In this document: one piece after another, positions 28,609-39,794 of the stretch
Layout of the letters: each line of letters starts with the position of its first letter
Numbering within the stretch: the stretch's first letter is position 1
NCBI GenBank assembly: GCA_001778375.1
Contig: MFGV01000005.1
Coordinates: forward strand, 1 to 52,937
Direction of reading: 5' to 3'
DNA: 52,937 nucleotides
Source: Candidatus Firestonebacteria bacterium RIFOXYD2_FULL_39_29
Lineage (GTDB): Bacteria > Oederibacteriota > D2-FULL-39-29
Position numbers and translations under genes: made by a program
The notes under the pieces: generated by a model
What the model saw: only the letters and a program-made list of their open reading frames with translations
Told to the model about the DNA's origin: nothing
Databases searched by the model: none

Positions 28609-29211
28609 ATGATATTATTAATGGTGTCGGGAGAATATGACTTGATAAATACTCCAAAAAACGGGATAGATCCAGATTCTATTTTAATGCTTCAAGCCAA
28701 AAGCGGGGATATTCATGCCTATGAAGCACTCGTAAATAAATATAAAAAACCTCTTTTAAATTTCATATACCGTTTTCTGAAAGACAGACAGCTCGCGGAA
28801 GATATCGCCCAGGAGACATTCTTTCGGGTCTACCGCGCAAGAGAAACCTACCGGCCCGGGTCAAAGTTTTCCACCTGGCTCTATACGATTGCCTCAAACC
28901 TTTCTCTTGATACAAAAAAGAAAGAAAAACGAGACGCCTCCGGTCATGTTCAGTCTATGCCGGATTCCGGCCGGGAGTTAGGAAGTAGCGACACCCCCGT
29001 ATATTCAGGCGCCGAAAATTCCCGTCTGGAAGAAAATATCCACGCCGCCCTTCAAAATCTTCCCGAAACACAAAGAATAGCACTACTCCTCAAGGTCTAC
29101 GAAGATAAAAGCTACACCGAAATAGCCGAAATCATCGGCACCACCAAACCCGCCGTAGAATCCCTGATCTTCCGAGCCAGACAGAATTTGAAGATAAAAC
29201 AACTGAAATAA
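28609..29211 (+). CDS. ECF sigma-70 factor
   Basis: 200 residues. Sigma-2 region spans ~25-95 (NFIYRFLKDRQLAEDIAQET, FFRVYRA, FSTWLYTIASNLSLD); sigma-4 spans ~138-195 (LQNLPETQRIALLLKVYEDK, SYTEIAEIIGTTKPAVESLI, FRARQNLK). The linker region with Gly/Ser/Asp residues is typical of ECF factors. The weak gaagaaag site is 4-11 nt before ATG 28609; another ATG at 28621 is possible. A zinc-finger anti-sigma-like gene, the usual partner, lies not next to it but at 39261, beyond the restriction island. A weak terminator-like GTAAATCC/GGATTTTAC hairpin occurs at 29227-29246. Confidence 0.9.
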   Translation: MILLMVSGEYDLINTPKNGIDPDSILMLQAKSGDIHAYEALVNKYKKPLLNFIYRFLKDRQLAEDIAQETFFRVYRARETYRPGSKFSTWLYTIASNLSLDTKKKEKRDASGHVQSMPDSGRELGSSDTPVYSGAENSRLEENIHAALQNLPETQRIALLLKVYEDKSYTEIAEIIGTTKPAVESLIFRARQNLKIKQLK

Positions 29212-29420: not shown

Positions 29421-31388
29421 ATGGATGGAAAATCGGAAGATATAAGGCAGGAAAGAATAAACAATTTGAAAGAAATTATGCCTGAGGTTTTTACTGAGGG
29501 GAAGGTGGATGTTGAGAAGCTCAAGCTGACGCTTGGGGAGGATTTGAACCTTCAGGATGAACGGTATGTGTTGAATTGGGCGGGGAAAGCGGAAGCTTTT
29601 AAGGTCTTACAGGCGCAGAGTACCGCGACACTCGCTCCGGCGCCGGAAGAATCCATTGATTTTGAAAAAACGCAGAATGTATTCATAGAAGGCGAGAATC
29701 TCGAAGTCCTGAAAGTCCTTCAGAAATCCTATTACGGCAAAATAAAGATGATTTACATAGACCCGCCGTACAATACCGGCAACGACAGCTTTATCTATCC
29801 AGACAAGTTTTCCGAGTCAAAAGACGAGTACCTGAAGAGAATCGGCGACAAAGATGAAGAAGGCTTCCTCCTGAAAGAAGGCTTATTTCGAAAAAACAGC
29901 AAAGAAAGCGGCCACTACCATTCCAACTGGCTCTCCATGATGTACCCACGATTATTCCTTGCAAGAAACCTCCTGAGAGATGACGGCGTGATTTTTGTCT
30001 CCATTGACGACAATGAAGTTCATAATCTACGAATGATAATGAATGAAGTCTTTGGAGCCGAGAATTTCATTTCAAGTATTTCAAGAGTAATGAAATCTGG
30101 AGGTTCTAAAGGCAGTTACTTCACTCCGAATGTAGACTTCATTCTTGTATATGCAAAAAATATTATTTCAACTGAGTATTTTAGATCACCAATAAGTCAG
30201 GATCAAATAGCTAATTACTACAATAAAATAGAATCCTCGGGTAATAGGAAAGGAGAATCTTTCGGGGAAGAACGTGTCTATGTCGCCGGTCTTGATATTC
30301 GTCCTAATCAAAGATATTGGATAAAATGCCCAGATGGAAGTTTTGTAATTCCGCCAGGGGAGAATTTCCCAGAAAAAATTAAACAAGGATCAAAAATAAC
30401 TCCAACTTCACAAGATGGTGTGTGGAAGTGGATATTTGAGACATACGAAGATGAGCTTAAAAAAGGTAACATCGTGTTTAAGCAAACGTCAACTTCTGCA
30501 TTATTAGATCAAGATGGAAATCGGTCAAAATGGAATATATATAACAAACTATGGCTAAAAGATAGGCTTGAGAAGGGTGTTGTTCCCTCTAATTTTATTG
30601 ATGATTATGAAAACAGGCAAAGTGCTTCAGAGTTGAAACAGCTTGATATTTCTTTTGATTTTGCAAAGCCTGCTGGACTGATAAAATATTTGATTGATAT
30701 TGTAAGTGTTAAAGGTGATGAAATAGTCTTAGATTTTTTTGCTGGTTCAGGTACTACTGCTCATGCATTATATTTATTAAATAAAGAAGATGGCGATGAT
30801 AGAAAGTACATTTGTGTTCAATTACCAGAGAAAACTGATGAAGACAGCGAAGCATATAAAGCAGGTTATAAGACGATAGCTGAAATCTGCAAAGAAAGAA
30901 TACGAAGAGTTATTAAAAAAATCAAAAAAGAAAAGGAAGAGAATCCAGACCTTTTTGCCGACCAGAAAAAGGACTTAGACCTAGGAATGAAGGTTTTCAA
31001 GCTTAAAAACTCTAATTTTAAAATCTGGCGGAACGACATAGCTGAAAATGAAAAAGAACTTGGCAAACAATTAGATGCCTTTGAAAATCCAATAAAAAAA
31101 GAAGCCAAAAATGAAAATATGCTCTGGGAAATCCTTCTAAAATCCGGCTATGACTTAAATACAAAGGTAGAAGAAAAGAAAATCTCCGGTTGCCCTGTCT
31201 TCTTGGTCTCTGACGGTGAAATGATCGTCTGCCTTTCAAAAATCAACGAGAGTGTAGTCAAAGAAATCGTAAAACAACCCCCAAAAAAATGCATCTGTCT
31301 TGACATTCTCTTCGCCAAAAACGACCAATTAAAAACCAACACCGTCCTACAAATGAAAGACGCCGGAGTGGAGTTTAGGACAATATGA
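29421..31388 (+). CDS. mod: Type III R-M DNA methyltransferase (Mod)
   Basis: 655 residues. The beta-class order of motifs is visible: DPPYNTGNDSFIYPD (motif IV, DPPY at 114-117) precedes FFAGSGTTAHAL (motif I, ~440), with the target-recognition region in between (~190-400). IFVSIDDNEVHNLRMIMNEVFG is typical of type III/N6-adenine Mod proteins. The length is usual. The GGGG site supports the ATG. It adds N6-methyl to adenine at the recognition sequence. The stop overlaps the next start as ATGA. Base composition changes near 30,050, where the TRD begins, from moderately GC to more AT-rich, which suggests exchange of the TRD. Confidence 0.93.
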   Translation: MDGKSEDIRQERINNLKEIMPEVFTEGKVDVEKLKLTLGEDLNLQDERYVLNWAGKAEAFKVLQAQSTATLAPAPEESIDFEKTQNVFIEGENLEVLKVLQKSYYGKIKMIYIDPPYNTGNDSFIYPDKFSESKDEYLKRIGDKDEEGFLLKEGLFRKNSKESGHYHSNWLSMMYPRLFLARNLLRDDGVIFVSIDDNEVHNLRMIMNEVFGAENFISSISRVMKSGGSKGSYFTPNVDFILVYAKNIISTEYFRSPISQDQIANYYNKIESSGNRKGESFGEERVYVAGLDIRPNQRYWIKCPDGSFVIPPGENFPEKIKQGSKITPTSQDGVWKWIFETYEDELKKGNIVFKQTSTSALLDQDGNRSKWNIYNKLWLKDRLEKGVVPSNFIDDYENRQSASELKQLDISFDFAKPAGLIKYLIDIVSVKGDEIVLDFFAGSGTTAHALYLLNKEDGDDRKYICVQLPEKTDEDSEAYKAGYKTIAEICKERIRRVIKKIKKEKEENPDLFADQKKDLDLGMKVFKLKNSNFKIWRNDIAENEKELGKQLDAFENPIKKEAKNENMLWEILLKSGYDLNTKVEEKKISGCPVFLVSDGEMIVCLSKINESVVKEIVKQPPKKCICLDILFAKNDQLKTNTVLQMKDAGVEFRTI

Positions 31389-32506
31389 ACAATAAAATAG
31401 TTTTCATAGATAGATTCAATGAAGAATCAAAACCCATAAATGATGAAATATTCAAAGAGGTTGCCACGATTGTAAAAGATAAAAAGTATAATTTTAAGCT
31501 TGAGCCTGCTAAAGTACCAAGAGGAATATTGGATGAATCACTAATAAGACAAATTATTGAAGCAAAATTAGTTATCGCTTGCATAAATGGTATTGAAGAC
31601 CAAATTGTTGCTTCAAAATCTCTTAATGTTATTTATGAGCTTGCTTTCAGACAAGCTGCTCAAAGACCAATTATTGCTGTCAGCAAAAACAATAAATTAG
31701 AAAATCTGCCATTTTATCTGCGTAATATTAAAATAGTAAAAAATATTAGAAGAGAATTGCCAGAGGTTTTAAATAGTGTCTTGAATAATCCGGATTATCC
31801 AGATAATAGAGTATGGAAAATACTTAAAGAAATAGAAACAGAAAATCGCCTGAGCGTTAAAAATGCATTTGATTTTTATGAGAGAAAAAAAATCTGGGAA
31901 GTAGATTCAACAGGAAGCCTGAGGGTATTTGGGTCATATCTCGGAGCCATGTCAAAAGCAGGTGAAGACTGGAAAAACTACACCTTGTCTTTTAAAATGA
32001 AAATAGTTAATAGGTCTTTAGGTGTGATTGTGTATGGCGGTACTTGGAAAAAGGGATTGATGTTCCAAATATCAACAGAAGGAAAAAGGATTATTCCTCA
32101 CAGATTATTTCCTACGGTAAATGCAATGCCAGACTCAATAATAAAATCCATGTCAAAATGCTCAAAGAATTGCAATATCTGTAACGATACTTGGTATGAT
32201 GTTGCCATTACGATTGGAAGAAGAATACAAATAAAACTTGACAAAAAAACATTAAGCTGGACTGAAGCTCAGACAAGGATATTTCTTGGATTTGTTAGCC
32301 AAAATGATGCTATTATAAAAGATGACTGGGTAGGAGAAGAAAGAGCGATCCCAAAGATAGATTCTGAGCAATTGTGTTGTGGAAAGATAGGATTTAGAAA
32401 TTCTTACGGTGGAAATGAGTTGAATGATGAAGAAGCTTTAATAAGGGATGTGAAGGTAATATTAGAAGATGGAAGGGTAATAAATATCTGGCCGAGTGCT
32501 TGCTGA
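31385..32506 (+). CDS. TIR/deoxyribosyltransferase-like domain fused to lectin-like domain
   Basis: 373 residues, starting 4 nt inside the end of mod. Residues ~1-130 have a Rossmann-like order: KIVFIDRFNEE, RQIIEAKLVIACINGIED, then SLNVIYELAFRQAAQRPIIAVS. The N-V-x-Y-E-L-A-x-R-Q-A-x-x-x-P-I-I pattern is that of TIR-like/nucleoside 2-deoxyribosyltransferase-like proteins, with the Glu of YEL as likely catalytic residue. Residues ~155-370 form a beta-sandwich of concanavalin-like type (WKNYTLSFKMKIVNRSLGVI, WYDVAITIGRRIQIKLD, GKIGFRNSYGG), close to LamG/DUF1080, with a C-x-x-x-C-x-x-C insertion. The overlap with mod argues for a joint function. Both domain calls are by motif reading. Confidence 0.65.
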   Translation: MNNKIVFIDRFNEESKPINDEIFKEVATIVKDKKYNFKLEPAKVPRGILDESLIRQIIEAKLVIACINGIEDQIVASKSLNVIYELAFRQAAQRPIIAVSKNNKLENLPFYLRNIKIVKNIRRELPEVLNSVLNNPDYPDNRVWKILKEIETENRLSVKNAFDFYERKKIWEVDSTGSLRVFGSYLGAMSKAGEDWKNYTLSFKMKIVNRSLGVIVYGGTWKKGLMFQISTEGKRIIPHRLFPTVNAMPDSIIKSMSKCSKNCNICNDTWYDVAITIGRRIQIKLDKKTLSWTEAQTRIFLGFVSQNDAIIKDDWVGEERAIPKIDSEQLCCGKIGFRNSYGGNELNDEEALIRDVKVILEDGRVINIWPSAC

Positions 32507-32918
32507 GAGCGAAAAGAAAAATTAGCGAGCTACGGCCATTTTGCTGAGGTCAGCAAAATCGTCAAGCTTGATGCAGCAGTGCGGTGAGTCTTCGACAGTT
32601 TGTCGACAAGTGAAATGGGTCCAACTATTAAGGAATACTTAATAGTTCAACCAGAATGAAAACAAATAGATTCTCTTTAAAGACGGCGAATTATGGAAAA
32701 ATCAGTTGCCGAGAAATTCTCGGTAACTGTCAGGAAAGTGGAAAGTATTTTTAAAGACACTGCCCTCCAAAAAGCGTTGGCGGGTCAACTAAGAGATCCC
32801 GGATATCCAAAAAGATCGGCGGGTTAATTAAGAGATATCCAAAAAACCGGATTCCCCGCCGAACGGCGAGGTCTCGTTAACGACGGACGGAATGACAGAG
32901 ACGAAGGGAAAATAATTA
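32507..32918. other. Repeat-rich spacer inside the R-M island
   Basis: This 412-bp gap holds several structured parts: a perfect 10-bp hairpin AACTATTAAG/CTTAATAGTT (32623-32647), a 13-bp hairpin with one mismatch (32703-32729, arms CAGTTGCCGAGAA and TTCTCGGTAACTG), an imperfect tandem repeat of GGCGGGTYAAYTAAGAGAT and ATATCCAAAAA units (32789-32850), and GC-rich CCGCC ... GGCGAGGTCTCG ... GGACGG (32856-32890), which recurs in reverse near 40131-40175. A 44-codon frame is listed separately. Confidence 0.6.
32693..32827 (+). CDS. Possible 44-aa ORF in the R-M spacer
   Basis: ATG 32693 opens a 44-codon frame (MEKSVAEKFSVTVRKVESIF and so on) that crosses the hairpin at 32703-32729 and the tandem units. 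The first 30 residues would be helical, with a helix-turn-helix-like SVAEKFSVTVRKV. No ribosome-binding site is clear. It may be a gene fragment left by the insertion of repeats. Confidence 0.25.
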   Translation: MEKSVAEKFSVTVRKVESIFKDTALQKALAGQLRDPGYPKRSAG

Positions 32919-33809
32919 ATGATTTACAAAGTATTTGTTGATGACAGCGGGAGTAGAGATTACAAGAATCCTTATGTCTCTGATTTTAAGGTAAAGCCGC
33001 CTTTATTTGAGGCTTATCCCCAATTTTGGAGAGATAATTATTTTGTTTTGTGCGGAGTAAGAATCCATCAGAGTGAAATCGGTGGCATTAATAAAGAAAT
33101 TAACGATTTAAAAATGACTCACTTTAAAACAAATAAAGTTGAAATAAAGTCAGACTGGCTTAGGAATCCGAGGCAAAGACAGAAATATTATTTAGAAAAG
33201 TATAATATTTCAGCTGAAAAGCTTAATGAGTTTGGCTTTGAGATTTATGAGATTATTAAAAAGAATGCTAATAAAATGAAAATTATTGGGGTTGTTTTTG
33301 ATAAAAGATGTTACGGTGAAGAAAAAAGAAGGACTACGGATGGGCAGCCTTTGCTTAAAGCCGTTCAAGTGTTGTTTGAAAGACTTCAATACACGAAAAA
33401 ATATCATATTGTGATTTTTGATCAATTTGAATGCGACTTGTGTATAACTAAAGGTGAGCATAAAAAAATATCTGATATTGCCCAATCCAAAGATAATCTT
33501 AAAAAGCTTCATGTTGGCCAATTTGATAAGATAATTGATGTGAAATTTTCTAAATCTTCCGGAGAAAACTTTATTCAAATCGCCGATCTTTGCGCGTACA
33601 ATGTTTATAGGCAATTTTTGCATTTTGGCAGGGAATGGACAAAAGAACAAGGCAATGAAGTAATGAATATGTATGAATACTTTGAAAAAATTAGATGTAA
33701 TTTTATGGTTAATCCGGTAAATGGTAAAGTTCAGGGATGTGGATTGGTCTGCTTGCCGGACTTTGGTAAATGCAATTGGAATCTGCTAAAAGGGTGCGAT
33801 TTAAAATAA
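32919..33809 (+). CDS. DUF3800 protein
   Basis: 296 residues. The N-terminal IYKVFVDDSGSRD (residues 2-14) is the DUF3800 start motif (D-D/E-S-G), followed by YFVLCGVRI, and FIQIADLCAYNVYRQF (~ residue 225) is the family's conserved ending, I-Q-x-A-D-L-x-A-Y. Together they form an RNase H-like fold with acidic residues (D8/D9, and D at ~226), so a nuclease or phosphotransfer role is likely but not established. It commonly occurs in defence islands. It is placed between the TIR-like fusion and res. The ATG has only a weak site, so translation may be modest. Confidence 0.8.
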   Translation: MIYKVFVDDSGSRDYKNPYVSDFKVKPPLFEAYPQFWRDNYFVLCGVRIHQSEIGGINKEINDLKMTHFKTNKVEIKSDWLRNPRQRQKYYLEKYNISAEKLNEFGFEIYEIIKKNANKMKIIGVVFDKRCYGEEKRRTTDGQPLLKAVQVLFERLQYTKKYHIVIFDQFECDLCITKGEHKKISDIAQSKDNLKKLHVGQFDKIIDVKFSKSSGENFIQIADLCAYNVYRQFLHFGREWTKEQGNEVMNMYEYFEKIRCNFMVNPVNGKVQGCGLVCLPDFGKCNWNLLKGCDLK

Positions 33810-33992: not shown

Positions 33993-36647
33993 ATGAAACT
34001 GCATTTTGACGCGAATCAGGAGTTCCAGCTGGAGGCGGTTAAATCCGTTGTTGATTTATTTCAGGGGAATCCTATGAACAAGGGGGATTTTGAATATTCT
34101 CTGAGCGGGGACGCTGAAGGCAGTACGATAAATGAATATGGAGTTGGGAACAGGTTGTTTGTTGATGAGGATAAAATAAAAGAGAATCTTGGGGAAGTTC
34201 AGCGCGGGAACGGGCTGGTGGGTGTTCCGGACTTTGCCGGGATGCATTTCTCTATTGAGATGGAAACGGGTACAGGTAAAACTTATGTTTACCTTCGAAC
34301 AATTTACGAGTTAAATAAAAAATACGGGTTCAAGAAATTTATCATAGTCGTTCCGAGTGTTGCCATTAAAGAAGGGGCGAACAAAAACCTTGAGATAACG
34401 AAAGAACATTTTCAGGGGTTGTATGATAATGTTCCGGTAAACCACAAGATCTATGATTCAGGAAGAACTGCCGAGTTGCGCAATTTCGCGTTGAGCAATA
34501 CTGTTGAGATTCTCGTGATAAATATTGACTCTTTCGCGAAGGATACAAATATAATTAATCAGGCGAGAGATTCGGCTCTGGGGAAAAAACCGATAGAGTT
34601 TATTCAATCTACCAGTCCGATTGTTATAGTTGACGAACCTCAGAATATGGAAACAGAAATACGAAAAAAGGCGCTTGAAAACCTTAAGCCCTTATGCACG
34701 CTCAGGTATTCTGCTACGCATACCAACCTGTATAATCCTGTTTATAGTTTAAATCCTGTGAAAGCTTATGATCTGGGGCTGGTAAAACAGATTGAGGTGG
34801 ATTCTGTTTTCGCGGAGGGCGGCTTTAATCAGGCGTTTATCTCTCTTGAAGAGCTAAAATCCGCCAAGAAATCGGTCAGCGCAAGTATAAGAATAGATGT
34901 AAACACCGATAAAGGCGTTACGAAAAAAACATTTACAGTAAAGAGCGGAGATGATTTGTATGAACTTTCCAATGAAAGGGAGGCCTATAAAGAAGGTTAT
35001 AAAATAAATTCTATAGATGTCTCTAACGGCTGTATAGAACTGTCAAACGGCGATGTAATTTCCAAGGGAGAAACAAAAGGCGGTTTGCAGGATGAAGTTA
35101 TGAAAGTTCAGGTGGACAAAGCCGTCAAAGAACATTTCCATAAACAGCGGAATCTTAAAGAAAACGGGATCAAAGTGCTTACACTGTTCTTTATTGACAG
35201 GGTTGCCAATTACCGTTCTTATGATGAAGCCGGAAAAGAAGTTCCGGGAAAGTTTGCGTTATGGTTTGAGGAGATATATAAAAAGTACGCGAACGAAGCT
35301 AAATTCAAAAAAGTAATACCTTTTGAAGTTGAAAAAGTTCATAACGGCTACTTTGCTCAGGATAAAAAGGGGAAATTTAAAGATTCTACTTCCGGGGAAA
35401 CCCAGGCCGATGATGATACTTATAAGTTAATTATGCAGAAAAAAGAAGAGCTGCTTGATATTAATAATCCTTTGAGTTTTATTTTCAGCCATTCTGCTTT
35501 GCGTGAGGGCTGGGATAATCCGAATGTGTTTCAGATATGTACCCTAAACGAGACCAGATCGGATTTGAAAAAGAGGCAGGAAATAGGAAGAGGACTCCGG
35601 CTTTCCGTAAACCAGCAGGGCGACAGGATAAGGGATAAGAGTATTAATGTTCTGACGGTTATCGCGAATGAAAGTTATGAGGATTTTGCTAAGAAACTTC
35701 AGAAAGAGATACATGAGGACTGCGGTGTTGAGTTTACCGGAAGGATTAAAAACGCGAGAGATAAAAAGAATGTGACTTTCAGAAAAGGATTTAATCTGGA
35801 TCCGAAGTTTATTGAGCTATGGAACAAGATAAAGCAAAAAACAACTTACAGGGTGGACTATAATACTGAAGAATTGATAAAGGACGCGGGTAAAGCAATA
35901 AAGGAAATGCCGAAAATCACAAAGCCCGTTATAAGATCGGAAAAAGTCAGTATTTTTATGGGTAAAGAAGGAGTCAAGACCTATATGACGGGTTCTGATT
36001 TGCCAAAGACCGTGGAAATGAAGACGGAGACCCCTGATGTTCTGGGATACATTCAAAGTAAGACAGAGCTTACAAGGTCGACAATACTGCAGATATTAAA
36101 GGAATCAGGCAGGATAGCTGATATTCTAAAAAATCCTCAGATGTTTCTTGACCTCGCAGTGGAAAAAATCAGGACAATACTTACTAAGTTTTTAATTGAC
36201 GGCATTAAATACGAGAAAATAGCGGGGCAGGAATGGGCGATGATGCTTTTTGAAGGTAAAGAGATAGAATCCTATGTGGATAATCTTTATGAGGTTAAAA
36301 ACGGTAATAAAACTCTGGCATCTCATATTATTATCGACTCAATGTCCGAGCCGGAGAGGAAGTTTGCCGAGGATTGTGATACAAATAATAATATCGAATT
36401 TTTCATAAAGCTGCCAAGGTGGTTTGTAATAAAAACGCCTATTGGACCCTATACGCCGGACTGGGCATTGATATTTAAAGGTGATAAAAAACTGTATTTT
36501 GTCGCAGAAACAAAAAGCACGCTTGATGAAAATGCTCTCAGGGGCAGCGAGTATATAAAAGTTAAATGCGGGGAAAAGCATTTCGCGGAATTCCCTGATG
36601 TTATATATCAAAAAGTGACTAGAGTTGCGGGACTGCGGGAACCTTAA
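33993..36647 (+). CDS. res: Type III restriction endonuclease (Res)
   Basis: 884 residues. Walker A METGTGKTYVYLRTI (~88-102), Walker B IVIVDEPQNME (~210-220, DEPQ), helicase motif RQEIGRGLRLSVNQQGDR (~528-545). The C-terminal nuclease site YTPDWALIFKGDKKLYFVAE followed by TK (~820-845) fits PD-x(n)-E-x-K. Thus SF2 translocase plus endonuclease, as in the type III Res subunit, which works with Mod and ATP. Length (~880-1000) is normal and there are no frameshifts. It lies 2.6 kb after mod with three other features in between; Res/Mod pairs are usually adjacent, so the inserts are noteworthy. Confidence 0.93.
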   Translation: MKLHFDANQEFQLEAVKSVVDLFQGNPMNKGDFEYSLSGDAEGSTINEYGVGNRLFVDEDKIKENLGEVQRGNGLVGVPDFAGMHFSIEMETGTGKTYVYLRTIYELNKKYGFKKFIIVVPSVAIKEGANKNLEITKEHFQGLYDNVPVNHKIYDSGRTAELRNFALSNTVEILVINIDSFAKDTNIINQARDSALGKKPIEFIQSTSPIVIVDEPQNMETEIRKKALENLKPLCTLRYSATHTNLYNPVYSLNPVKAYDLGLVKQIEVDSVFAEGGFNQAFISLEELKSAKKSVSASIRIDVNTDKGVTKKTFTVKSGDDLYELSNEREAYKEGYKINSIDVSNGCIELSNGDVISKGETKGGLQDEVMKVQVDKAVKEHFHKQRNLKENGIKVLTLFFIDRVANYRSYDEAGKEVPGKFALWFEEIYKKYANEAKFKKVIPFEVEKVHNGYFAQDKKGKFKDSTSGETQADDDTYKLIMQKKEELLDINNPLSFIFSHSALREGWDNPNVFQICTLNETRSDLKKRQEIGRGLRLSVNQQGDRIRDKSINVLTVIANESYEDFAKKLQKEIHEDCGVEFTGRIKNARDKKNVTFRKGFNLDPKFIELWNKIKQKTTYRVDYNTEELIKDAGKAIKEMPKITKPVIRSEKVSIFMGKEGVKTYMTGSDLPKTVEMKTETPDVLGYIQSKTELTRSTILQILKESGRIADILKNPQMFLDLAVEKIRTILTKFLIDGIKYEKIAGQEWAMMLFEGKEIESYVDNLYEVKNGNKTLASHIIIDSMSEPERKFAEDCDTNNNIEFFIKLPRWFVIKTPIGPYTPDWALIFKGDKKLYFVAETKSTLDENALRGSEYIKVKCGEKHFAEFPDVIYQKVTRVAGLREP

Positions 36648-36664: not shown

Positions 36665-38656
36665 ATGACCGAACCGGGGAGAAATGACCCGTGCCCCTGC
36701 GGGAGCGGGAAGAAATATAAGAAATGTTGTATGGGTAAAAGTAATATTCTGCCGGTAAAAACCGGACAGAATATCAATATATTGGAGACCTACTCAAATC
36801 AGAAAGATAACCTGCCAAAACTTCACAATACAGACGGAGAACCGCTGCTTTTTTGCAAGGTTTATTTTAAGTTAATTAATAAAGAAGCAATAGAAGTAGT
36901 ACTGAATGGGATGGAAAACGTAGAACGCGACGAAAATAACAAGAGTTGGGTCTGGAAAAAGAAAGGCAAAAATCTACTGCATCCGAATGTTCTTATCGGA
37001 AATATTTACTTCGAAAATGAATTCCTTGTGTTTGATACAAATTCAATGGAAAGATCGGTGAAATTCAGGAAGTTAGCCGTTAAATCGTTTAAGGGATATA
37101 TTTCTTATCTTCGTACGGAGGAAAAAGAATTTTCAGAGCTAAAAAGGCCGTCGGAAGAAAAGATGAAAGAGCAGGCTTTGAAACAGCAGGAGCTGATGAA
37201 TAATCCGGAAGTTGTAAGGCAATTAAAACAGAAGACAGAAGAGTATTATCTGAAAAGCTGGGTAAGGCAGAAAATACCGGCGCTTGGTGATATTACCCCT
37301 TATGACGCCATGAAATCTGAAAAAGGCAGGGAGTTACTTGAAAAGCTGATAGGCGAAATGGAAGAAATGGATAAGAATGTTGCCGTAAGAAACCCGGCAA
37401 TGAACATGAATTTTGACCTACTGCGTGCTAAAGTAGGGATGAATAAGGAACAGCGGCGGAGTAAAAACGGTCATCATGTTGATGAAAGTATAAGCGAAAT
37501 AAAAACAGGAATGAACGAACCATGTCCGTGCGGGAGCAAAGAGAAGTATAAAGACTGCTGCTTGACAAAGGATCGGGTGCAAGAACTTGACAAAAATTCC
37601 AGGATTTCCGGTACGATCCTTGATGAGTATATGTTCCTTATTCAATATGTCGGGATGTATGCAGATAAAGAACGGCAATTCAGCATTAATGGTGAATATT
37701 TAGACGCCGTCTATGAATATATAAAAAATGCGTATACCGATGAAAAAATAAAAACCAGAATGTATGACAGTATGCTGATGGGATGGTATTTCCTTGATTT
37801 AAAGTACGGAATTGAAAATATGTCTTTAATTGATAATCTTCTGAAGTATGGCTCGGTCTCCGAGCTAAACAGCCCCGGTCCGGAATGCTTGCGGGATCTG
37901 GCAAAAAGTTATCAGGGTTTTTACGAAATAATGAATGTTTCTCCGCGCGAAATGACAGTCAAAGAACTGGTTACTGGAAAAGAAAGAAATGTAATGGCTT
38001 ATGGAGACACCTATGAAAAAGACAGGAAGCCGGGAGAGGTCTGGTTCTGCCGTCTGCTTGGAGCGGAAAATGAATCCTATTCTTATGGAGCTCCCTGGAT
38101 GTATACAAAAGATCAGCGGGATAATATCGAAAGCAATCTGTTAAAGATTATAGAAAAAGCCCGTGAAAACGGCTGGCTCGAAAAAATGACGCCGGAAGAA
38201 GAGGTTAGAACCGTTGCCAAAAACTCTATAATATTCTTTGTTGCAGGTTCTTTGCAGTGTGAGCCTTCCAGAAAAGAAGAACTGCCTTTTGGGTTTTTTA
38301 AAAAAAACAGCAACGAATTCTTTGGACCAAGTTTTAAGAATCTTGATAAAGATGAGATGTTTTACAATAAAAGCATTTTCAGTGTGTCTGATATATTTGT
38401 ACTGAACTCCCGGCTTAAGGAAGATAAGAATTTTGATTTTGACTCCGAAATCAATGACCACCTTTATATGAAAAAATATAAAATTAAAGGAGCCGCGACG
38501 AATATGGCAATTGCTTCAATAAAATTATTTGAGAACCGCATGGAATGTGAGACCAACTCCGAGTATAGAGCCAATGAAATGATGAAATTACTCTGTGAAC
38601 GCGGAAAGGGTATAGTCAAATTTGAAAGTCATGAAGAAATTAAGGGAATATTCTGA
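36665..38656 (+). CDS. Protein with two SEC-C zinc motifs
   Basis: 663 residues. An N-terminal SEC-C motif GRNDPCPCGSGKKYKKCCMG (~5-24) and a second one MNEPCPCGSKEKYKDCC (~283-300) bind zinc through the C-x-C...C-C ligands. The rest is helical with no catalytic motif I recognise. SEC-C occurs in SecA tails and in many proteins of uncertain function in defence and mobile islands. GGGAGAAG site before ATG; it starts 17 nt after res and is followed 51 nt later by a short gene, so it probably belongs to the same island transcript. Confidence 0.75.
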   Translation: MTEPGRNDPCPCGSGKKYKKCCMGKSNILPVKTGQNINILETYSNQKDNLPKLHNTDGEPLLFCKVYFKLINKEAIEVVLNGMENVERDENNKSWVWKKKGKNLLHPNVLIGNIYFENEFLVFDTNSMERSVKFRKLAVKSFKGYISYLRTEEKEFSELKRPSEEKMKEQALKQQELMNNPEVVRQLKQKTEEYYLKSWVRQKIPALGDITPYDAMKSEKGRELLEKLIGEMEEMDKNVAVRNPAMNMNFDLLRAKVGMNKEQRRSKNGHHVDESISEIKTGMNEPCPCGSKEKYKDCCLTKDRVQELDKNSRISGTILDEYMFLIQYVGMYADKERQFSINGEYLDAVYEYIKNAYTDEKIKTRMYDSMLMGWYFLDLKYGIENMSLIDNLLKYGSVSELNSPGPECLRDLAKSYQGFYEIMNVSPREMTVKELVTGKERNVMAYGDTYEKDRKPGEVWFCRLLGAENESYSYGAPWMYTKDQRDNIESNLLKIIEKARENGWLEKMTPEEEVRTVAKNSIIFFVAGSLQCEPSRKEELPFGFFKKNSNEFFGPSFKNLDKDEMFYNKSIFSVSDIFVLNSRLKEDKNFDFDSEINDHLYMKKYKIKGAATNMAIASIKLFENRMECETNSEYRANEMMKLLCERGKGIVKFESHEEIKGIF

Positions 38657-39204: not shown

Positions 39205-39260
39205 AAATAAACCGCAAGTATTTCTTCCGATTGTCGTATAATATAATAGAGGGTAAAAAG

Positions 39261-39794
39261 ATGAGAATATCAAAGGGAAAATGCGAAGAAATAAGAAGGA
39301 AAATACCTGCTTTTGTCGACGGGGAGTTGAGTGATGTGGAGAAAAGTCAAGTAAAAGAGCATCTGGATTCTTGCCTTCCTTGTTTGAAAGAATCTAAAAT
39401 ATACTTAAAACAGGATAAAATACTTACAAAACTCAAAGATATTGAATCTTCTTTGAATTTCAATAGAAAATTGTTTTTGAAAATTCAGCAAGCTGATTCT
39501 AAGGGGCAAAACCCGATGGATATATTCCTAAAATGGATTCTTCCGGTGCCGGCTCTTTGCGCGGCTATTCTGGTTATTTTTATGGGATTTACGTTGGTTT
39601 CGCCGTATATTTATGCTCTTCCCGGAGAAAAGGTGAACACGACAGTTACGACTGATTCAAGAAAGAGCTTTTTTTCTTTCGTAGAGTTCTCTTCTTATTG
39701 TGATAAGCACTGCGAGCAGGTATGCAGGTATTGCAGGGTTGCAATGGGGAGTGAGTGCAAATGCGGGAGGTGTTCAAATGAATCTAAAAACTAG
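39261..39794 (+). CDS. Zinc-finger anti-sigma-like protein with Cys-rich tail
   Basis: About 177 residues; ATG 39261 with GAGGG upstream, preceded by TATAAT at 39237 and 39242, and better supported than ATG 39231. KCEEIRRKIPAFVDGELSDV, then EHLDSCLPCLK give the zf-HC2/ZAS motif (H-x3-C-x2-C). A TM helix at ~90-115 (WILPVPALCAAILVIFMGFT) is followed by an extracytoplasmic part ending in seven Cys and one His: C-x3-C-x3-C-x2-C-x7-C-x-C-x2-C. Thus an anti-sigma-like membrane protein whose outside part could bind metal. Its likely partner ECF gene is at 28609, and it leads directly into a metal-efflux operon. Confidence 0.75.
   Translation: MRISKGKCEEIRRKIPAFVDGELSDVEKSQVKEHLDSCLPCLKESKIYLKQDKILTKLKDIESSLNFNRKLFLKIQQADSKGQNPMDIFLKWILPVPALCAAILVIFMGFTLVSPYIYALPGEKVNTTVTTDSRKSFFSFVEFSSYCDKHCEQVCRYCRVAMGSECKCGRCSNESKN

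Follow-up and report, generated by a model that had tools for sequence, protein, structure and literature searches.

Analysis of the window (the whole stretch of 52,937 nucleotides under study, from Candidatus Firestonebacteria bacterium RIFOXYD2_FULL_39_29) showed a type III restriction-modification (R-M) operon whose genes all lie in one direction, on the forward strand, in the order mod, fusion gene, DUF3800 gene and res. The methyltransferase gene mod (29421..31388; PF01555, 1.6e-32; PADLOC MTase_III, 2e-186) is followed by an ORF for a two-domain protein of 373 amino acids (P0001, 31385..32506; hereafter the fusion gene), the first four bases of which (ATGA) overlap the mod stop codon. 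After an intergenic gap of 412 bp (32507..32918), with short interspersed repeats of the genome and a hairpin (32618-32652; fold z-score of -2.2 for 32600-32700), come the gene of a DUF3800 protein (32919..33809; PF12686, 6e-10), which is the second gene of the mod-res gap, and res, encoding the restriction subunit (33993..36647; PADLOC REase_III, 6e-297; PF19778 and PF04851). Since mod lies upstream and the DUF3800 gene and res downstream in the same direction, the fusion gene is embedded between mod and res. With mod and res co-directional, the locus is a type III R-M operon, of which the fusion gene is an accessory and not a core member. The last large gene of the island (36665..38656, forward strand) encodes a 663 amino acid protein with two SEC-C motifs, at residues 6-23 and about 283-302 (PF02810, 1.9e-18), and a weak match to Xre_MbcA_ParS_C (2e-4).

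The R-M genes fill about 10 kb between an ECF sigma factor gene on the left (28609..29211, forward strand) and an anti-sigma (zf-HC2) gene on the right (39231..39794, forward strand), both with homologues in a sister genus. There, the sigma gene (61% identical) is separated by 27 bp from the anti-sigma gene (56%), the same TolC gene (72%) comes next, and the R-M island is absent. The island was horizontally acquired and is of foreign origin. Over 29421-32500 the GC content is 44% in the early part of mod and then falls to about 34%, a level that persists to the end of mod and across the fusion gene; the latter and the second half of mod may have been replaced in a joint exchange. A retron was ruled out, as none of the island genes encodes a reverse transcriptase.

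A reading-frame check of the fusion gene found an ATG start, 373 codons and no internal stops, while the opposite strand of 31385..32506 carries stops throughout. This confirmed that the ORF is real, an artefact being ruled out by the strong homology of its N-terminal domain and by the translational overlap with mod. Searches with the full protein by tblastn or pattern, part of which are weak negatives owing to a pre-filter requiring exact peptides, disclosed no close relative in GTDB genomes, IMG/VR, plasmids or phages. Likewise, a more sensitive search yielded no relatives of the protein in 98 and 45 genomes, with none in the 44 other genomes of the phylum. Because none of the collections searched yielded a homologue with its domains in this order, there is no sign of selection on the gene as a unit. 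When the fusion protein alone was compared by sequence with solved structures there was no credible match, no PADLOC model matched it, and the single-sequence AF2 model (pLDDT 34) was unusable. We assign its N-terminal domain to the DrHyd/NDT-like proteins with strong confidence, and its C-terminal domain to the DUF1080-type concanavalin (ConA)-like domains with moderate confidence.

The N-terminal domain comprises residues 1-150 (31385..31834, forward strand). A phage family (phrog_3634) matched residues 47-117 with E=3.8e-9, a profile of four distant proteins (from Salinibacter, Rhizobium and a Streptococcus phage) built without the fusion protein gave the domain 40.7 bits, and a further profile, made from 38 relatives and again excluding the fusion protein, matched it with E=1e-9 (database size, 1e6). 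When the family profile A1, which includes the fusion protein, was compared with solved structures, DNPH1/Rcl was the nearest by sequence (7e-5). An AF2 model built with 39 sequences placed residues 1-150 at pLDDT values of mostly 59-90 per 10-residue block, and Foldseek matched this domain to T. brucei NDT (probability 0.98), DNPH1 (0.99), a plant TIR (0.99) and a Harvfovirus NDT (1.00). NDT, DNPH1 and TIR structures were found at probabilities of 0.94-1.00 with modest E-values (5e-4 to 2e-2). Alpha/beta folds of other kinds stood beside them in the ranking, the overall placement being among flavodoxin-like folds. The branch is therefore assigned on the sequence evidence, as the fold search alone does not identify it. 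These results place the domain, by homology and fold group, in the DrHyd/NDT-DNPH1 branch of the TIR-like Rossmannoids, the DrHyd superfamily having been described by Aravind and colleagues as sister to TIR and SLOG (PMC9503650). An earlier note on this DNA had called the N-terminal half TIR/NDT-like. Its placement in the Rossmann/TIR fold group is borne out by AF2 and Foldseek and its DrHyd/NDT-like character by the profiles, but not its being a TIR domain proper, which was ruled out since no TIR model of Pfam, NCBIfam or PADLOC matched the protein, nor a plain salvage NDT, since the match to Pfam PF05014 (E=0.12, 13.0 bits) is below the gathering score of 28.8.

When 384 genomes were surveyed with the family profile, relatives of the N-terminal domain turned up in 19 other genomes; none of the phylum genomes searched with this profile has a close one, and the looser phage-family profile does give matches in some of them. 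The relatives sit on plasmids and prophages beside recombinases, and type III genes were found in the examined flanks of none of 42 relatives from named genomes. Relatives other than the ConA-type fusions (see below) carry coiled-coil, TPR or further partner domains, judging by their sequences. One DrHyd protein (L054:7815-8882) has a different beta-rich C-terminal half with a GxW-type pattern, seen by eye, which is possibly calycin-like.

The nucleoside-deoxyribosyltransferase-type motif that the earlier note had described in this half is indeed there, running from S79 to A91 (S-L-N-V-I-Y-E-L-A-F-R-Q-A). It corresponds to SLNVIYELAFRQA (31619..31657, forward strand), in the helix after strand 3. 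Aligned through the family profile A1, the Glu of YEL (E85) falls on the nucleophile of DNPH1, which is Glu104 in the human enzyme (PMC10483697), a correspondence deduced from its distance to the variable Asp69 site of Rcl chains. Thus, the fusion protein has a Glu at the catalytic position in the helix after strand 3 and also keeps N81, Y84 and R89. In contrast, an intact NDT/TIR active site was not supported by the comparison of 33 conserved columns, each kept by 75% or more of the remaining relatives: the fusion protein departs from the family at 19 of them, against a median of 3 and 12 for the next worst, and its N-terminal domain is the most diverged among the 39 relatives compared. Since the search for these relatives used the N-x-x-Y-E motif, the comparison is biased toward well-conserved members. 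In place of the P-I-G loop that follows strand 1 there are R10, F11 and N12, and C66 stands where the family has the Asp/Asn of A(D/N)LT, after strand 3, so that neither the conserved polar loop nor this D/N is present; moreover, the D of PFD is lost, with P109 and F110 kept. An insert of about 8 residues that separates strand 3 from its helix is not in itself a mark of decay, since some family members (L023, L025 and L028) share it. With both the loop of strand 1 and the Asp/Asn that follows strand 3 gone, catalysis by this domain is uncertain. DNPH1/Rcl and the nucleoside 2-deoxyribosyltransferases thus resemble the fusion protein in their Rossmannoid fold group and in the Glu of YEL at the nucleophile position, but the latter is under the Pfam NDT cut-off, has a second domain fused to it, carries L53 at the position of DNPH1 Asp80 and C66 at that of the D/N after strand 3, and has no Tyr on strand 1.

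The C-terminal domain (residues 156-373; 31850..32503, forward strand) is probably of the DUF1080-type ConA fold, an assignment made from profile comparison with one profile family. A profile of 24 DUF1080 (PF06439) domains from phylum genomes scored 29.7 over 126 columns, a value reached by none of 60 shuffles and none of 196 real protein segments, the best null (22.1) being one of these segments. When the ConA halves of other fusions (see below) were added to the profile, the score was 26.7, the best null reaching 19.7, and the two versions aligned 112-126 columns of the domain. One hastily merged profile lost the signal, and there was no direct Pfam match to PF06439. Of the LamG/DUF1080 beta-sandwich that the earlier note had seen here, the DUF1080 part is the one retained: the Laminin_G_3 profile (PF13385) scored 14.5, matched by 13 of 120 real segments, the F5/8 control profile gave no support either, and both identities were rejected on profile comparison. 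Sequence relatives of this domain were not found above noise in 384 genomes, nor in plasmids or phages, and the AF2 pLDDT is below 50 for residues 197-352. The Cys cluster insert reported before is present within the beta-domain as a CxxxCxxC (C259, C263 and C266; 32159..32182, forward strand), and the sequence suggests that, together with a further Cys pair (C331-C332), it may form a putative metal site.

The earlier note did not mention the type III R-M context of the fusion gene, that is, its position in the mod-res cargo slot. Among 24 further type III loci whose contig carries both mod and res (the locus of the window excluded), 14 had at least one gene in the mod-res gap. These include AbiJ (L150), SoFic plus YhcG/PDC-S02 (L141), HEC-01 (AAA plus DUF4276, PARIS-like; L143), RhuM/PDC-S05 or PDC-S23 (L130, L137, L146 and L152), Bro-N/PDC-S13 (L131 and L148), a type IIG (L145), a PLD protein (L133) and a 23S_rRNA_IVP (L139). 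Across the type III loci L129-L155, the gap is thus a recurring slot for defence and toxin genes, and no relative of the N-terminal domain was found in the other gaps examined. The slot hosts known defence genes elsewhere, and the fusion gene occupies the position of an embedded accessory gene. Embedding has precedents in PrrC, within the type I R-M system EcoprrI (PMC12707154), and in DarTG2, within another type I system (PMC12255303). Like these and the PDC/HEC candidates of PADLOC, the fusion gene lies between R-M core genes; the precedents have other effector folds, whereas the fusion protein belongs to a type III system and has no match among the PADLOC models.

We tentatively believe, with a probability of about 0.45, that the fusion protein is an accessory antiviral factor of the acquired type III R-M operon, made up of a ConA trigger sensor and a DrHyd hydrolase acting via E85. 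The C-terminal domain would bind a trigger, which could be a product of the phage or else the Mod/Res complex; in response, the N-terminal domain would cleave the N-glycosidic bond of NAD+ or of a nucleotide via E85, and infected cells would cease growth once restriction was inhibited or overwhelmed. We infer the catalysis, substrate, trigger and guard role, as well as, with moderate confidence, the ConA fold. In favour of the effector are the ATGA overlap and the co-directional operon, the foreign island, the defence cargo in the slot, the embedded precedents, the match of PADLOC model PDLC00733 to fusions of the reverse order (see below) and the family of the N-terminal domain, DrHyd domains being accepted NADase/signal effectors (PMC9503650). 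The nearest worked precedent is Retron-Eco1, whose NDT-like effector acts through NAD+ hydrolysis (PMC12405507), although that system needs a reverse transcriptase and msDNA, neither of which was seen at the fusion locus. Against the effector are the loss of the strand-1 loop, of the D/N of A(D/N)LT (C66) and of the D of PFD, the lack of a homologue with the same order and of N-terminal domain relatives at type III loci, and a ConA call that comes from one profile family.

Because of these lost residues, the main rival is a non-catalytic sensor, in which a catalytically dead N-terminal domain would be a nucleotide or ADP-ribose sensor or a scaffold, and the protein would regulate the R-M complex, or the DUF3800 protein encoded next to it, in a ligand-gated manner. 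The 19 of 33 changed columns, the most among the 39 members, include the strand-1 loop that contacts the nucleotide in the clade, and inactive versions in this clade have been described as nucleotide sensors (PMC9503650); yet Y84, E85 and R89 plus N81 are kept in the region after strand 3 that bears the active-site residues of the clade, and a pure sensor would have less need of the invariant Glu, so that we regard this possibility as rather unlikely. A passenger, that is, a mobile nucleotide-salvage or unrelated gene hitchhiking in the operon without a role in defence, would fit the relatives found on plasmids and prophages beside recombinases and without type III genes, as well as the single known copy of the architecture. 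The translational overlap with mod, the wealth of defence and toxin genes in the mod-res slot elsewhere and a close family that is not the standard salvage NDT (PF05014 being under its cut-off) argue against it, and make it quite improbable. It is also unlikely that the C-terminal half is some other beta-rich or metal-binding domain, as the Cys cluster might hint, which would leave only an embedded DrHyd protein with no lectin-like sensor. The low pLDDT of residues 197-352, the silence of Laminin_G_3 and the signal lost by the merged profile would all agree with such a domain, but the two DUF1080 profile versions exceeded all nulls over 112-126 aligned columns.

The combination of a ConA-type and a DrHyd domain is found elsewhere in the opposite order. 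The 384-genome survey disclosed a protein (L170/P0006) with a ConA-type domain before the DrHyd domain (DUF1080-set profile, 4.4e-8), and a further search three more (L190, L191 and L192; 31-43% identical to L170), for a total of four other genomes. In L190, Pfam matched PF05014 (7e-5) and PF06439 (5e-4), both under the curated cut-offs. The DrHyd half of P0006, L190 and L191 matched PDLC00733, an effector model of PADLOC that bears the label TIR (2e-13 to 2e-14). The earlier statement that no standard effector has this domain pair is true for the named libraries, but the pair itself recurs, reversed, in other genomes. These proteins contain the same two kinds of domain as the fusion protein, and differ from it in their order, in having intact DrHyd motifs, in ConA halves that are not specifically close and in that no type III genes were recognised in the neighbourhoods read. 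In fact, the score between the C-terminal domain of P0001 and these ConA halves was 11.2, with shuffles reaching up to 17.5. ConA and DrHyd domains are thus joined in both orders, and the lack of specific kinship between the ConA halves suggests that the pairing may have arisen by independent joinings.

Lectin-fold sensors joined to immune effectors are represented by the eukaryotic SPRY (ConA-fold) immune sensors and the bacterial NPCBM/FGS conflict systems; such joining has been proposed in bacteria, where FGS systems are linked to DRHyd among other effectors, and SPRY-like domains were not observed in prokaryotic conflict systems in an eLife 2021 survey (PMC8195603). The fusion protein differs from both in being probably of DUF1080 type, not SPRY, and in carrying no NTPase. 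We consider it doubtful that a ConA-fold sensor fused to a DrHyd nucleotide hydrolase guards type III R-M as a bacterial analogue of the SPRY-type viral sensors, through a pairing assembled more than once and in both orders. The component domains and the principle of embedding in R-M operons are already known; the architecture of the fusion, its type III setting and the ConA/DrHyd pairing appear to be undescribed in the libraries and open papers that were searched, with the proviso that the Payne et al. 2024 preprint on embedded defences (cited in PMC12255303) could include relatives. If the effector reading is true, a lectin-fold sensor fused directly to a nucleotide-cleaving effector would join the known bacterial antiviral parts, the locus would be a type III instance of defence cargo embedded in restriction operons, and an idea related to SPRY-like sensing in prokaryotes would become directly testable in the ConA/DrHyd fusion family. 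The mod-res gap, in turn, is a practical hunting ground for new defence genes. For bench work L170, L190, L191 and L192, with intact DrHyd motifs, are better targets than P0001. Beside one ConA-DrHyd gene, a stretch with no Pfam match at 0.01 (L266:479-922) resembles, on inspection by eye, a protease domain of the trypsin type.
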